This document shows positions 50,638 through 53,870 of a stretch of DNA of 64,000 nucleotides, one piece after another. The DNA comes from Fulvimarina sp. (GTDB lineage Bacteria > Pseudomonadota > Alphaproteobacteria > Rhizobiales > Rhizobiaceae): positions 1 to 64,000 of the forward strand of contig PACL01000017.1 of assembly GCA_002700095.1 (NCBI GenBank), given 5' to 3'. The position numbers and the translations under genes are program-made. The notes beneath the pieces are model-generated. The model made no database searches. It saw only the letters and a list, made by a program, of their open reading frames with translations, and was not told where the DNA came from. Each line of letters begins with the position of its first letter. The stretch's first letter is position 1.

Positions 50638-51620
50638 CCTCGTCGAGACTGTTCCCGCTGGCGACGACGCTTCTGATCTTCATCCTCGCCTATGCGCTCT
50701 GCTACGCCCAGTTCCCCAACATCCTGTCGACGCGGGTGATCGGCAATCTTCTGACCGACAACGCCTTTCTCGGCATCGCTGCGGTCGGCATGACCTTCGT
50801 CATCCTGTCCGGCGGCATCGACCTGTCGATCGGCTCGGTGATCGCCTTCACCGGCGTGTTCCTCGCGGTCGCGATGGGCGACGGCGGCATGCCGCCGCTC
50901 TTCGCCATCCCGCTGCTCCTCGTCATCACCACCCTCTTCGGCGCGGCGATGGGGGCGATGATCCACTATCTCGCCATGCCGCCCTTCATCGTCACTTTGG
51001 CCGGCATGTTCTTCGCCCGCGGCGTCGCCTTCCTGATCTCCACCGCATCGGTGCCGATCAATGTCGACCTCTACGACACGCTGCAGGGCCTCTATTTCCG
51101 CATGCCCGGCGGCGGCCGGCTCTCCTTCATCGGCATGGCGATGCTCGCCGTCTTCGTGGTCGGCATCGTCATCGCCCACTTCACCTCCTTCGGCCGCAAC
51201 GTCTACGCCATCGGCGGCAACCGCCAGTCGGCCGAACTGATGGGCGTGCCGATCGCCCGCACCACCATCCTCATCTACGCCTTGTCGAGCTTCCTCGCCG
51301 GCCTCGCCGGAATCGCGTTCTCGCTCTATACCTCGGCGGGCTACTCGCTGGCCGCGGTCGGCGTCGAACTCGACGCCATCGCCGCAGTGGTCATCGGCGG
51401 CACGCTGCTCACCGGCGGCTTCGGCTATGTCGCCGGGACGTTCCTGGGGATCCTGATCATGGGGCTGATCCAGACCTACATCGTCTTCGACGGAACGCTC
51501 TCGAGCTGGTGGACCAAGATCGTCATCGGCCTCCTCCTGTTCAGCTTCATCGCGCTGCAGCGGGGCCTCGTCTGGCTCAGTTCCCGGCGCAACGACGCTG
51601 CGGCGGCAGCGTCGGCATGA
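50634..51620 (+). CDS. yjfF: Sugar ABC transporter permease (YjfF type)
   Basis: A 328-residue RbsC-family permease, second of the pair. Motifs: GIAAVGMTFVILSGGIDLSI, GRNVYAIGGNRQSAELMGV and ELDAIAAVVIGGTLLTGG. GGAAGGAGG stands upstream and the start overlaps the ytfT stop (ATGA); its own stop overlaps the start of the GntR gene. The tail is Ala-rich. Confidence 0.9.
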   Translation: MTSSRLFPLATTLLIFILAYALCYAQFPNILSTRVIGNLLTDNAFLGIAAVGMTFVILSGGIDLSIGSVIAFTGVFLAVAMGDGGMPPLFAIPLLLVITTLFGAAMGAMIHYLAMPPFIVTLAGMFFARGVAFLISTASVPINVDLYDTLQGLYFRMPGGGRLSFIGMAMLAVFVVGIVIAHFTSFGRNVYAIGGNRQSAELMGVPIARTTILIYALSSFLAGLAGIAFSLYTSAGYSLAAVGVELDAIAAVVIGGTLLTGGFGYVAGTFLGILIMGLIQTYIVFDGTLSSWWTKIVIGLLLFSFIALQRGLVWLSSRRNDAAAAASA

Positions 51621-52366
51621 CCGGCCTCCTCGCCACCGTGGCGGCCTCCCATCCGACCCGGTCCAGCCATGCCCATGTGGTCGGGACGCTGGGGCGCCAG
51701 ATCGTCGACGGGACGTTTCCCCCCGGCTCGATCCTGCCGGGGGACAAGGATCTCGGCGAGACCTTCGGTGTCTCGCGCACGGTGCTGCGGGAGGCCATGA
51801 AGACGCTGGCCGCCAAGCGGCTGATCGAGGCCAAGACCCGCGTCGGCACGAGGGTGCTGGAGCGCGAGCGCTGGAACCTCCTCGACCAGGACGTCCTGCG
51901 CTGGCGGGTGGAGGCCGGCCTCGACGGCCGCTTCATCGAGGACCTGGCGACCATGCGCCTCGCCTTCGAGCCGGAGGCCGCCGCGCTCGCCTGCCGGCGG
52001 GCCGCGGCCGCCGACATCGCCCGGCTGGAGGCGATCGTCGCCGAACTCGGCAATCCCGCCCACGACCGCACCTCCATCGCCCGGGTCGACCTGAAGTTCC
52101 ACCTCGCCGTCGCCGACATCTCGCAGAACCCGTTCATGCGCGCGACCAGCGGCCTGATCGAGACGGCCCTTGCCATCGTCCTGCGGCTCTCTTCGCCCGC
52201 CGAGGACGCCGAGATGATCCGCGAATGCGCCGACAATCACCGGCTCATCGTCGAGGCCATCGCCTCCGGCGACGAGGAGCGCGCCCGCGCCACCATGCGC
52301 ACCGTCATCGAACTCGGCGCGACGCGCACGCAGGCGGCCTTGGGGGACGGGGCGGCGGAAGGGTGA
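51617..52366 (+). CDS. GntR/FCD-family regulator of the sugar ABC operon
   Basis: A 249-residue repressor-type protein. The N-terminal winged helix is recognised by LGRQIVDGTFPPGSILPGDK followed by GVSRTVLREAMKTLAAKRL; the C-terminal FCD ligand-binding domain has DLATMRLAFEPEAAALA, DLKFHLAVADISQNPFM and CADNHRLIVEAIASGDEERA, with the Asp/His residues that hold a metal in this family. It is the last gene of the operon (ATGA overlap with yjfF), so it probably reports the transported sugar or a derived acid and controls the operon and perhaps the convergent uxuA unit. Confidence 0.9.
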   Translation: MTGLLATVAASHPTRSSHAHVVGTLGRQIVDGTFPPGSILPGDKDLGETFGVSRTVLREAMKTLAAKRLIEAKTRVGTRVLERERWNLLDQDVLRWRVEAGLDGRFIEDLATMRLAFEPEAAALACRRAAAADIARLEAIVAELGNPAHDRTSIARVDLKFHLAVADISQNPFMRATSGLIETALAIVLRLSSPAEDAEMIRECADNHRLIVEAIASGDEERARATMRTVIELGATRTQAALGDGAAEG

Positions 52367-52373
52367 GAGGTGA

Positions 52374-52627
52374 GCGCCCTCTCTCCCCTTGAGGGAGAGA
52401 AAGCGATTTCATCATCTTGGCGAAGCCAAGTGATAGAAATCGCAAGAGAGGGGTGCCACCGGTTACGTCGCCCCGCCTGTGCATGGTGAGGCCCGGGAAC
52501 TTCTGCAATGTCGGTACGGATGGAACCGGTGGCACCCCTCTCTTGTCATTCTCAAGGTTTGGACCTCGGCGAGCCGAGGCCCAACTCCTTGGAATGACTT
52601 TCTCTCCCTCAAGGGGCGAGAGGGCGC
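52374..52627. repeat. 254-bp compound palindrome between convergent operons
   Basis: Outer arms 52374-52403 and 52598-52627 match as inverted repeats at 29 of 30 positions. Inner arms 52443-52464 and 52524-52545 match at 22 of 22. Between outer and inner arms each side carries its own hairpin: 52404-52442 folds with core CTTGGC-GAA-GCCAAG, and 52546-52597 folds with core CCTCGGC-GA-GCCGAGG plus TCATTC/GAATGA ends. The central 59 bp (52465-52523) are unpaired. The element fills the space between the GntR gene and uxuA, and encodes no protein. It may be a mobile palindromic repeat and would act as a two-way transcription barrier. Confidence 0.85.
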
Positions 52628-52664
52628 CTGCGCGCCACCGCGAGCGGCCGGGTGGCGAGACCCG

Positions 52665-53870
52665 CTACCTGTCCCGATACCCCAGCCCCGCGATCACCCC
52701 CCGCAGCTCCGCCAGGCCCTTCAGCCGGCCGATCGCCGGATAGCCCGGCTGGGCCTTGCGCGACAGGTCGTCGAGAATGTCCTGGCCGTGATCCGGCCGG
52801 AACGGGATCGAAACGTCGGCTCTACCGGCCGCCTTGCGCCGCGCCTCTTCCTTCAGCGCCGCGGCGACCAGCGCCACCATGTCGGTGTCGCCGGACAGGT
52901 GCTCCGCCTCGTGGAAGGACACCGGCAGGCCGTCGCCCTCGCGGATGGTGTTGCGCAGGTGGAGGAAATGCACCCGGTCGCCCAGCCGCTCCATCATGCC
53001 GGCGAGATCGACGTCCGGCCGCACGCCGAGCGAGCCCGAGCAGAGCGTGATGCCGTTGGCGGGGACGTCCACCGCCTCCATGATCTCCCGGTACTGCGCC
53101 TCGGTCGACATGATGCGCGGCAGGCCGAGCAGCGGAAATGGCGGATCGTCCGGGTGGCAGCACAGCCGGATGCCGAGTTCCTCGGCGAGCGGTGCGACCT
53201 CCGACAGAAAGTCGACGAAATGCCGCCGCAGCCCGTCCTCGCCGATGGGGCCGTATTCGGCGAGATGGTCGCGCACGTCGGCCAGGGTGAAATGCTCCGC
53301 CGCGCCCGGCAGGCCGAAGACGACGTTTCCGGCGAGCTCGACCTTGCGGGCCTCGCTCATGCCGGCAAAGCGTCGCTCGGCATCCGCCGCGACCTCACCC
53401 GGAAAGCTCTCCCTCGCGCCGGGACGCTCCAGGATGAAGATGTCGAAAGCGGCGAAGTCGACGAGGTCGAAGCGCATCGCCGTGCCGCCGTGGGAGACAC
53501 GCCAGGCGAGGTCGGTGCGGGTCCAGTCGAGCACCGGCATGAAGTTGTAGCAGACGATGTCGATGCCGGCGGCGGCGAGGTGCCTCAGGCTGGTCCTGTA
53601 CGCTTCCACATGCTCGCGAAAAGCGCCGGTCTGCTTCTTGATGTCTTCCGACACCGGCAGGCTCTCGACCACCTCCCACGCGATGCCCGAGGGCGAGCCG
53701 TCCCTGCGGGTCGCGATCTCGCGCTGGCGCTGGGCGATCGCCTCCGGCGTCCAGACGTCGCCGGTCGGCACGTGGTGGAGCGCCGAGACGACGCCCTCGA
53801 CGCCCGCCTGCAGCATGTCGTCGACGCTCACGAGATCGCCGGGGCCGAACCACCGCCAGGTCTGCCGCAT
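52665..53870 (-). CDS. uxuA: Mannonate dehydratase
   Basis: A 401-residue enzyme that dehydrates D-mannonate to 2-keto-3-deoxygluconate in glucuronate breakdown. Family marks include MRQTWRWFGPGDLVS, GVEGVVSALHHVPTGDVW, YNFMPVLDWTRTDL, RLCCHPDDPPFPLLGLPRI, NGITLCSGSLGVRPD, VHFLHLRNT and the C-terminal FRPDHGQDILDD; Cys and His residues in these bind the metal. The start at 53870 has GAGGAG 5 nt upstream. It is the last gene of the dctP-dctQ-dctM-uxuA unit, suggesting that the TRAP system imports a hexuronate or aldonate. uxuB and uxaC are not in the window. Confidence 0.95.
   Translation of the reverse strand: MRQTWRWFGPGDLVSVDDMLQAGVEGVVSALHHVPTGDVWTPEAIAQRQREIATRRDGSPSGIAWEVVESLPVSEDIKKQTGAFREHVEAYRTSLRHLAAAGIDIVCYNFMPVLDWTRTDLAWRVSHGGTAMRFDLVDFAAFDIFILERPGARESFPGEVAADAERRFAGMSEARKVELAGNVVFGLPGAAEHFTLADVRDHLAEYGPIGEDGLRRHFVDFLSEVAPLAEELGIRLCCHPDDPPFPLLGLPRIMSTEAQYREIMEAVDVPANGITLCSGSLGVRPDVDLAGMMERLGDRVHFLHLRNTIREGDGLPVSFHEAEHLSGDTDMVALVAAALKEEARRKAAGRADVSIPFRPDHGQDILDDLSRKAQPGYPAIGRLKGLAELRGVIAGLGYRDR

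Follow-up and report, generated by a model that had tools for sequence, protein, structure and literature searches.

The BoxC/PIT/TM class of repeats (Holder et al., 2015, PMC4666352) consists of intergenic units in which a pyrimidine arm, a short loop, a purine arm, a second loop and a mirror-image purine arm follow one another, and each of the five inverted pairs in E. coli is composed of one type A and one type B unit. In the available portions of that paper, these triplex repeats are tied to no transposon, phage or plasmid, and the words "endonuclease", "Vsr" and "DUF" are absent from its main text. The spreading of REP palindromes by RAYT proteins is itself termed a hypothesis in the accessible text of Di Nocera et al. 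(2013, PMC3733652), which left open the spreading agent of palindromes without a RAYT and defines CGTC REPs by a CGTC head, an 8–9-bp stem, a 4–5-nt loop and a CCA-like tail. Within the accessible open-licence literature of PubMed Central, we found no statement linking DUF559 or Vsr proteins to palindromic, REP, triplex or mobile elements.

Here we analysed a palindromic element at positions 52374–52627 of a 64,000-nt stretch of DNA from a Jiella draft genome (the window). The neighbouring genes are convergent, as originally predicted: the element begins 7 bp past the stop codon of a GntR/FCD transcription regulator (51614–52366, + strand; Pfam PF07729 and PF00392) and lies 37 bp from that of uxuA, encoding the mannonate dehydratase UxuA (52665–53870, − strand; Pfam PF03786), the start codons of both having been chosen by us. 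Direct reading bore out the nested arms of the original prediction. The outer arms, running from 52374 and to 52627, match at 29 of 30 positions and represent terminal inverted repeats as in MITEs, and the inner arms (52443–52464 and 52525–52546) are paired at 22 of 22 positions. The side segments between them (approximately 52403–52443 and 52545–52598) are mutually unrelated and each folds on itself. The predicted loop was also found, but it measures 60 nt (52465–52524) rather than 59 nt. Folded as RNA, the 254 nt reach −178.1 kcal/mol on the + strand (shuffled mean −94.7, z −14.7) and −176.5 kcal/mol on the − strand (shuffled mean −91.7, z −15.4), and 0 of 200 shuffles attained the native energy on either strand. 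The palindrome is far above chance expectation. A known Rfam RNA family was rejected as its identity because the three matches in window positions 52000–53000, including whalefall-1, were all below threshold and none scored above the gathering cut-off.

The element consists of two units of approximately 80–94 nt placed head to head. Each outer arm is a hairpin in its own right, which had previously been missed. In the left unit (52374–52454, + strand; H1 hairpin type, unit profile match L001:1501-1581), this core pyrimidine-first hairpin, TCTCTCCC-CTTGA-GGGAGAGA, occupies 52380–52400 and is the sole strict match in the window to the hairpin motif defined below. Each unit runs from the pyrimidine arm through a CTTGA-type loop to the purine arm GGGAGAGAA, a side hairpin and then AAGAGAGGG, the mirror image of GGGAGAGAA. 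In the left unit the side hairpin is H1 (GCGATTTC...GAAATCGC, 52403–52443, + strand), which has six exact-pattern copies in the genome, and the purine stretch following it from 52444, absent from the original prediction, forms the second purine arm AAGAGAGGGG (52444–52453, + strand). Judged from sequence, such a succession of arms is that of a predicted intrastrand purine triplex. The right unit (52534–52627, − strand; H2 hairpin type, unit profile match L001:1661-1754) is inverted relative to the left one and carries the side hairpin H2 (GTCATTC...GAATGAC, 52545–52598, − strand), which is replaced by H3 (CCTTTTC...GAAAAGG) in the copies on contig C44. Among 19 H1-type units from several genera, compensatory changes on both sides have kept the pairing at 12 of the 26 predicted pairs of the core hairpin and H1, and the structure is therefore conserved. 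Of the recent origin or strong selection once proposed from the near-perfect arms, it is this conservation that found support.

A sequence search located the element at 10 places in its own draft genome: six complete or nearly so, two half units, one interrupted by an insertion and one truncated where its contig ends. Alignment of these copies showed conserved outer arms and hairpins, a variable central spacer and two versions of the right side hairpin, H2 and H3, each self-complementary. One own-genome copy carries an extra palindromic segment inside its right unit (L013, approximately 1198–1271), and a similar segment follows the half unit on contig C59 (L015). Sixteen of 61 relatives contain the element, comprising nine of 10 Jiella genomes and seven of the other 27 in the family, where it mostly occurs as single units (the H1-type left unit stands alone in other genera); it was found in 0 of 24 relatives from other families. 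The expectation of copies in the genome and in relatives was thus confirmed, and of the palindromic mobile repeat family proposed earlier, the repeat family is supported by these copies and by the dimers beside a nuclease gene described below, but movement was not observed. Inspection by eye of the genome copies revealed no target-site duplication at their ends, and the genomes compared yielded no insertion event. Orthologous sites are filled in G004, G007 and G001, and those of G003, G009 and G008 are taken by a different palindromic dimer; with all six compared sites occupied, none offers a clean empty site. In the latter three (L251–L253, orthologues of 52280–52760), the dimer replacing the element is a head-to-head, CGTC-REP-like one.

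Contig C44 carries a gene that matches DUF559 (PF04480) with 104.8 bits (Pfam cut-off 20.6) and is bracketed by two dimers. This arrangement recurs with near-fixed spacing in G000, G001, G005, G008 and G009: measured from the domain ends, the upstream dimer ends approximately 91–128 bp before the DUF559 domain and the downstream dimer starts approximately 45 bp after it, with a close dimer only downstream in G001 and only upstream in G009:C22. Contig G005:C19 (L096, 1–2004) carries three tandem DUF559 cassettes with a period of approximately 715 bp and 94–99% identity. Diverged units adjoin DUF559 genes in G006, G016, G026 and G030. In the draft genomes G003, G004 and G007, the window-type element is present and no window-type units were identified near the DUF559 genes examined. 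The outer flanks of the Jiella cassettes are common to several species and the gene is therefore mostly inherited in place, so that it looks largely vertically inherited.

The association extends well beyond Jiella. We compared the left and right 300-bp flanks of 63 DUF559 genes, obtained from 68 matches after joining two pieces of one gene (G009:C21) and leaving out G052:C288, G038:C91 and two matches in G055 (1052358 and 2114776). The two flanks were alike for 39 of the 63 genes, as against 10 of 630 control intervals, and for 28 of 51 genes once window-type loci were set aside. The flanks contain a hairpin motif with a pyrimidine-first arm of YCTCYCCC type and a 3–6-nt loop. Fixed on this family set, where it occurs at 61 of 63 genes, and then applied to independent loci, mostly best-scoring matches with weaker and partial ones left out, the motif was found at 26 of 30, 14 of 20 and 24 of 26 DUF559 loci (64 of 76 in all). 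With the family set included, 125 of 139 DUF559 genes have the hairpin within 350 bp and 14 are without it; the purine-first, reversed hairpin lies beside 0 of 139.

Hairpin density near DUF559 genes in the four sets was 3.05, 2.62, 1.86 and 2.80 per kb, compared with 0.102, 0.019, 0.045 and 0.128 per kb, respectively, at distances above 600 bp, a far control that is largely coding DNA (near/far ratios of 22 to 141). Under an intergenic-only null with an assumed intergenic share of 12%, 25 hairpins were observed and 1.5 expected. Mirror arms are likewise present in these flanking hairpins: a third arm mirrored at 8 or more of 9 positions lies downstream of 215 of 548 hairpin-strands versus 10 of 548 shuffled ones, most commonly after a gap of 3 nt, as in BoxC. 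Arm type changed 29 times along the DUF559 tree, compared with a shuffled mean of 62.7 (0 of 200 shuffles as low), in a tree of 121 of the 139 rows (14 without a hairpin and four too short or with stops left out) that rests on few columns and has 11 of 117 inner branches well supported. Two small arm-label groups, CCCCTCCC and "other", were unclustered on this tree, and plain common descent of gene and flank may suffice for the tracking. Because the class adjoins DUF559 genes far above chance, these genes suggest themselves as the spreading machinery. The association with DUF559 is an observation, from which we infer mobilisation: the element probably (roughly 0.6) belongs, as a non-autonomous member, to a repeat family partnered with a DUF559 nuclease of the YcjD/NGO0050 type, Vsr-like in fold, which spreads or maintains the repeats.

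Whole genomes show the same association. In a sample of 199 genomes from the phylum, three or more copies of CCTCTCCC-N3-6-GGGAGAGG were present in 39 of the 55 with a full-length DUF559 (E below 1e-20) versus nine of the 144 others, and 1782 of 1963 copies reside in genomes with a full DUF559. The pattern read backwards had 1 and 3 matches in two of the genomes listed. Twelve DUF559 genomes, including G000 with 0 copies, are without this CCTCTCCC hairpin subtype. Of the nine genomes that hold at least three hairpins and no full DUF559, G250 contains 57 and G283 has a broken DUF559.

These genomes also bear on the view that RAYT/IS200-type (Y1) transposases spread the repeats, as they supposedly do GTAG REPs, and that the adjacency to DUF559 has another cause. 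Some Y1 transposases are accompanied by long terminal inverted repeats with GGGGWSAS, which resembles GGGGAGAG, according to the accessible text of Di Nocera et al. (2013, PMC3733652), and Y1 genes and BoxC are both present in E. coli. However, no Y1_Tnp match was identified in the own genome, and 51 of the 61 relatives (own included) are without one. Y1_Tnp presence was unrelated to hairpin richness (25/114 versus 23/85, p 0.41), and the hairpins were present in 20 of the 29 genomes that have DUF559 but lack Y1, compared with six of the 88 that have Y1 but lack DUF559. The hairpin flanks 0 of 12 Y1 loci in relatives (12 of 13 matches examined) and 0 of 30 in the phylum sample, most of these in hairpin-poor genomes. 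With no Y1_Tnp match in the own genome and none of the examined Y1 loci flanked, RAYT/Y1 was rejected as the partner, and this origin of the repeats is very improbable. As a separate observation, the E. coli control genome gave no DUF559 match, although K-12 HMS174 has ycjD.

The Pfam entry DUF559 is still of unknown function. A profile built from 23 DUF559 proteins matched 3hrl (E 2e-39), the mobile-intron protein 3r3p (5e-5) and PvuRts1I (1.6e-4). The predicted fold (pLDDT 86.6) resembled in the PDB 3hrl (Z 15.6), the homing endonuclease I-Bth0305I (Z 12.2) and Vsr (Z 10.9), with weaker matches, under the advised trust level, to a Holliday-junction resolvase (Z 7.4) and TnsA (Z 7.1). On the basis of this model, DUF559 is predicted to have an endonuclease fold of the PD-(D/E)XK, Vsr-like kind. 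Vsr cuts TG mismatches and I-Bth0305I an intron target site. A known defence system was rejected, PADLOC yielding weak partial matches only, the best of which (E 1.8e-5) falls in the N-terminal region of DpdF.

Several DUF559 loci could be assigned to named organisms. In an assembled-contig collection, the hairpin was present at 10 of 15 DUF559 loci, including Devosia, Arsenicitalea, Pelagibacterium and Geobacter-type MAGs, and absent at five (L156, L158–L161), with Clostridia and Bacteroidales MAGs among the hairpin-free. In a plasmid collection, of which 14 of 44 DUF559 records were examined, it was present at nine of 14 loci, including Sinorhizobium, Azospirillum lipoferum and Deinococcus, and absent at three (a cyanobacterium, A. 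brasilense and Sphingobium); two E. coli records carry the exact published BoxC, in which one G in the arm escapes the strict motif. The E. coli DUF559 gene is ycjD, and in K-12 HMS174 an exact BoxC starts 167 bp downstream of its stop codon. By MG1655 coordinates, the ycjD place is presumably entry 9 of Holder's Table 1. Strain KE47 has a second, inverted BoxC at the ycjD 3′ end. In the available part of Table 1 (Holder et al., 2015, PMC4666352), the HMS174 BoxC beside ycjD is identical in sequence to entry 9 and to three further entries. The E. coli strains A4 and AREA_505 (L316, L317), without ycjD, have efflux genes on the 3′ side of sapF and therefore provide no clean empty site. In N. 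gonorrhoeae, BoxC/PIT-type repeats lie on both sides of the DUF559 gene, on one side as an array, and we infer that the solved structure 3hrl (NGO0050) is that of this repeat-flanked gene. Beside it (L304, 2500–3165) is an array of three repeats of approximately 281 bp, each of which contains two PIT-like units in inverted orientation. A DUF559 gene with in-frame stops, a decayed partner gene, adjoins BoxC in K. pneumoniae (L313, 2001–2324).

Another explanation would make DUF559 a nuclease acting in repair or on mismatches, and the adjacent hairpins mere regulatory sites, terminators or insertions that are tolerated because the surrounding region is dispensable. The Vsr-like fold is consistent with this, as is the dispensability of ycjD, which is present in 3365 of 5426 complete E. 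coli genomes, and the Caulobacter DUF559 protein VsrA has been reported, in the accessible part of the source, as a repair-type nuclease partnered with a methyltransferase (PMC12907096). We consider this explanation unlikely, because the hairpin reaches up to 324 copies in DUF559 genomes and is rare without DUF559, because the same hairpins recur as dimers far from the gene (in the own genome and, among the places listed, in G070), and because the gonococcal repeats flank the gene on both sides, once as an array.

If DUF559 does spread or maintain the repeats, a unit would fold from single-stranded DNA into a hairpin or triplex, the nuclease would recognise the folded unit and nick or break the DNA beside it, and repair would copy the dimer into new intergenic sites. 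At its present site, the dimer would form the shared 3′ end of the two convergent transcripts, and the structured RNA barrier of the original prediction is compatible with this position 7 and 37 bp from the two stop codons. The dimer might instead owe its retention to a role in the host, acting as a bidirectional terminator or 3′-end protector between convergent genes or as a replication-stalling DNA structure, its spread being ancient and now passive. Its high stability on both strands near both stop codons and the CGTC-type dimer at the same site in G003, G009 and G008 agree with such a function, and Holder et al. (2015, PMC4666352) link the E. coli motif to genome rearrangement in the available portions of their paper. 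As the sole explanation, a host function is improbable because it leaves the link with DUF559 unexplained, and it is compatible with spreading by DUF559 as a secondary role.

With ycjD in E. coli, a candidate gene now adjoins RAYT-less palindromes, so that the question left by Di Nocera et al. (2013, PMC3733652) is open to experiment; if the proposed partnership is true, it gives a role to a Pfam family without one. More tentatively, and with somewhat less than even confidence, DUF559/YcjD proteins could, across many Pseudomonadota and in at least one Deinococcus, be dedicated mobilisers of the entire BoxC/PIT class. They might then constitute a second, independent counterpart of REPIN-RAYT, in which a Vsr/homing-type nuclease recognising an extruded hairpin or triplex replaces the HUH transposase.

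Among known repeats, the window units have the arm order of BoxC/PIT/TM, and the element resembles this class, as characterised in the available text of Holder et al. (2015, PMC4666352), in being intergenic and in forming inverted pairs that mix two unit types, H1 with H2 here. The second loop differs, with 3 nt (TTA or CCG) in E. coli BoxC and a 41–54-nt hairpin here. The window unit, whose arms are CTCTCCC and in which a side hairpin stands where the consensus has a 3-nt second loop, does not match the published E. coli consensus CCCTCNCCC N3-6 GGGNGAGGG N3 GGGNGAGGG, and the element is therefore named BoxC/PIT-like rather than TM_ECO. By its sequence, it is a BoxC/PIT-like dimer whose second loops appear to have grown into two different side hairpins. 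The CGTC REPs are likewise alphaproteobacterial head-to-head palindromic dimers for which, in the accessible text of Di Nocera et al. (2013, PMC3733652), no dedicated enzyme was known, and in three other Jiella genomes they occupy the position orthologous to that of the element. They are unlike the element in sequence, and a CGTC REP was rejected since the core hairpin and H1 do not fit and H2 starts with TTGTCATTC but has a 54-nt two-part stem. A GTAG REP with a RAYT was rejected as well, since no GTAG tag is present at the palindrome foot (the sequence at the unit ends is GCGCCC... in the own genome), no Y1_Tnp match was identified there and none of the examined Y1 loci is flanked. REP/REPIN-RAYT systems nevertheless share with the element short palindromes, head-to-head dimers and a single enzyme gene with these repeats on its flanks, and by analogy the DUF559 gene bracketed by these dimers looks comparable to REP-flanked RAYT genes. 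In both systems, the enzyme gene is seemingly vertical and enzyme clades are tied to repeat types; the enzyme is Y1/HUH in REPIN-RAYT, whereas here it is predicted to be a PD-(D/E)XK Vsr-like nuclease.
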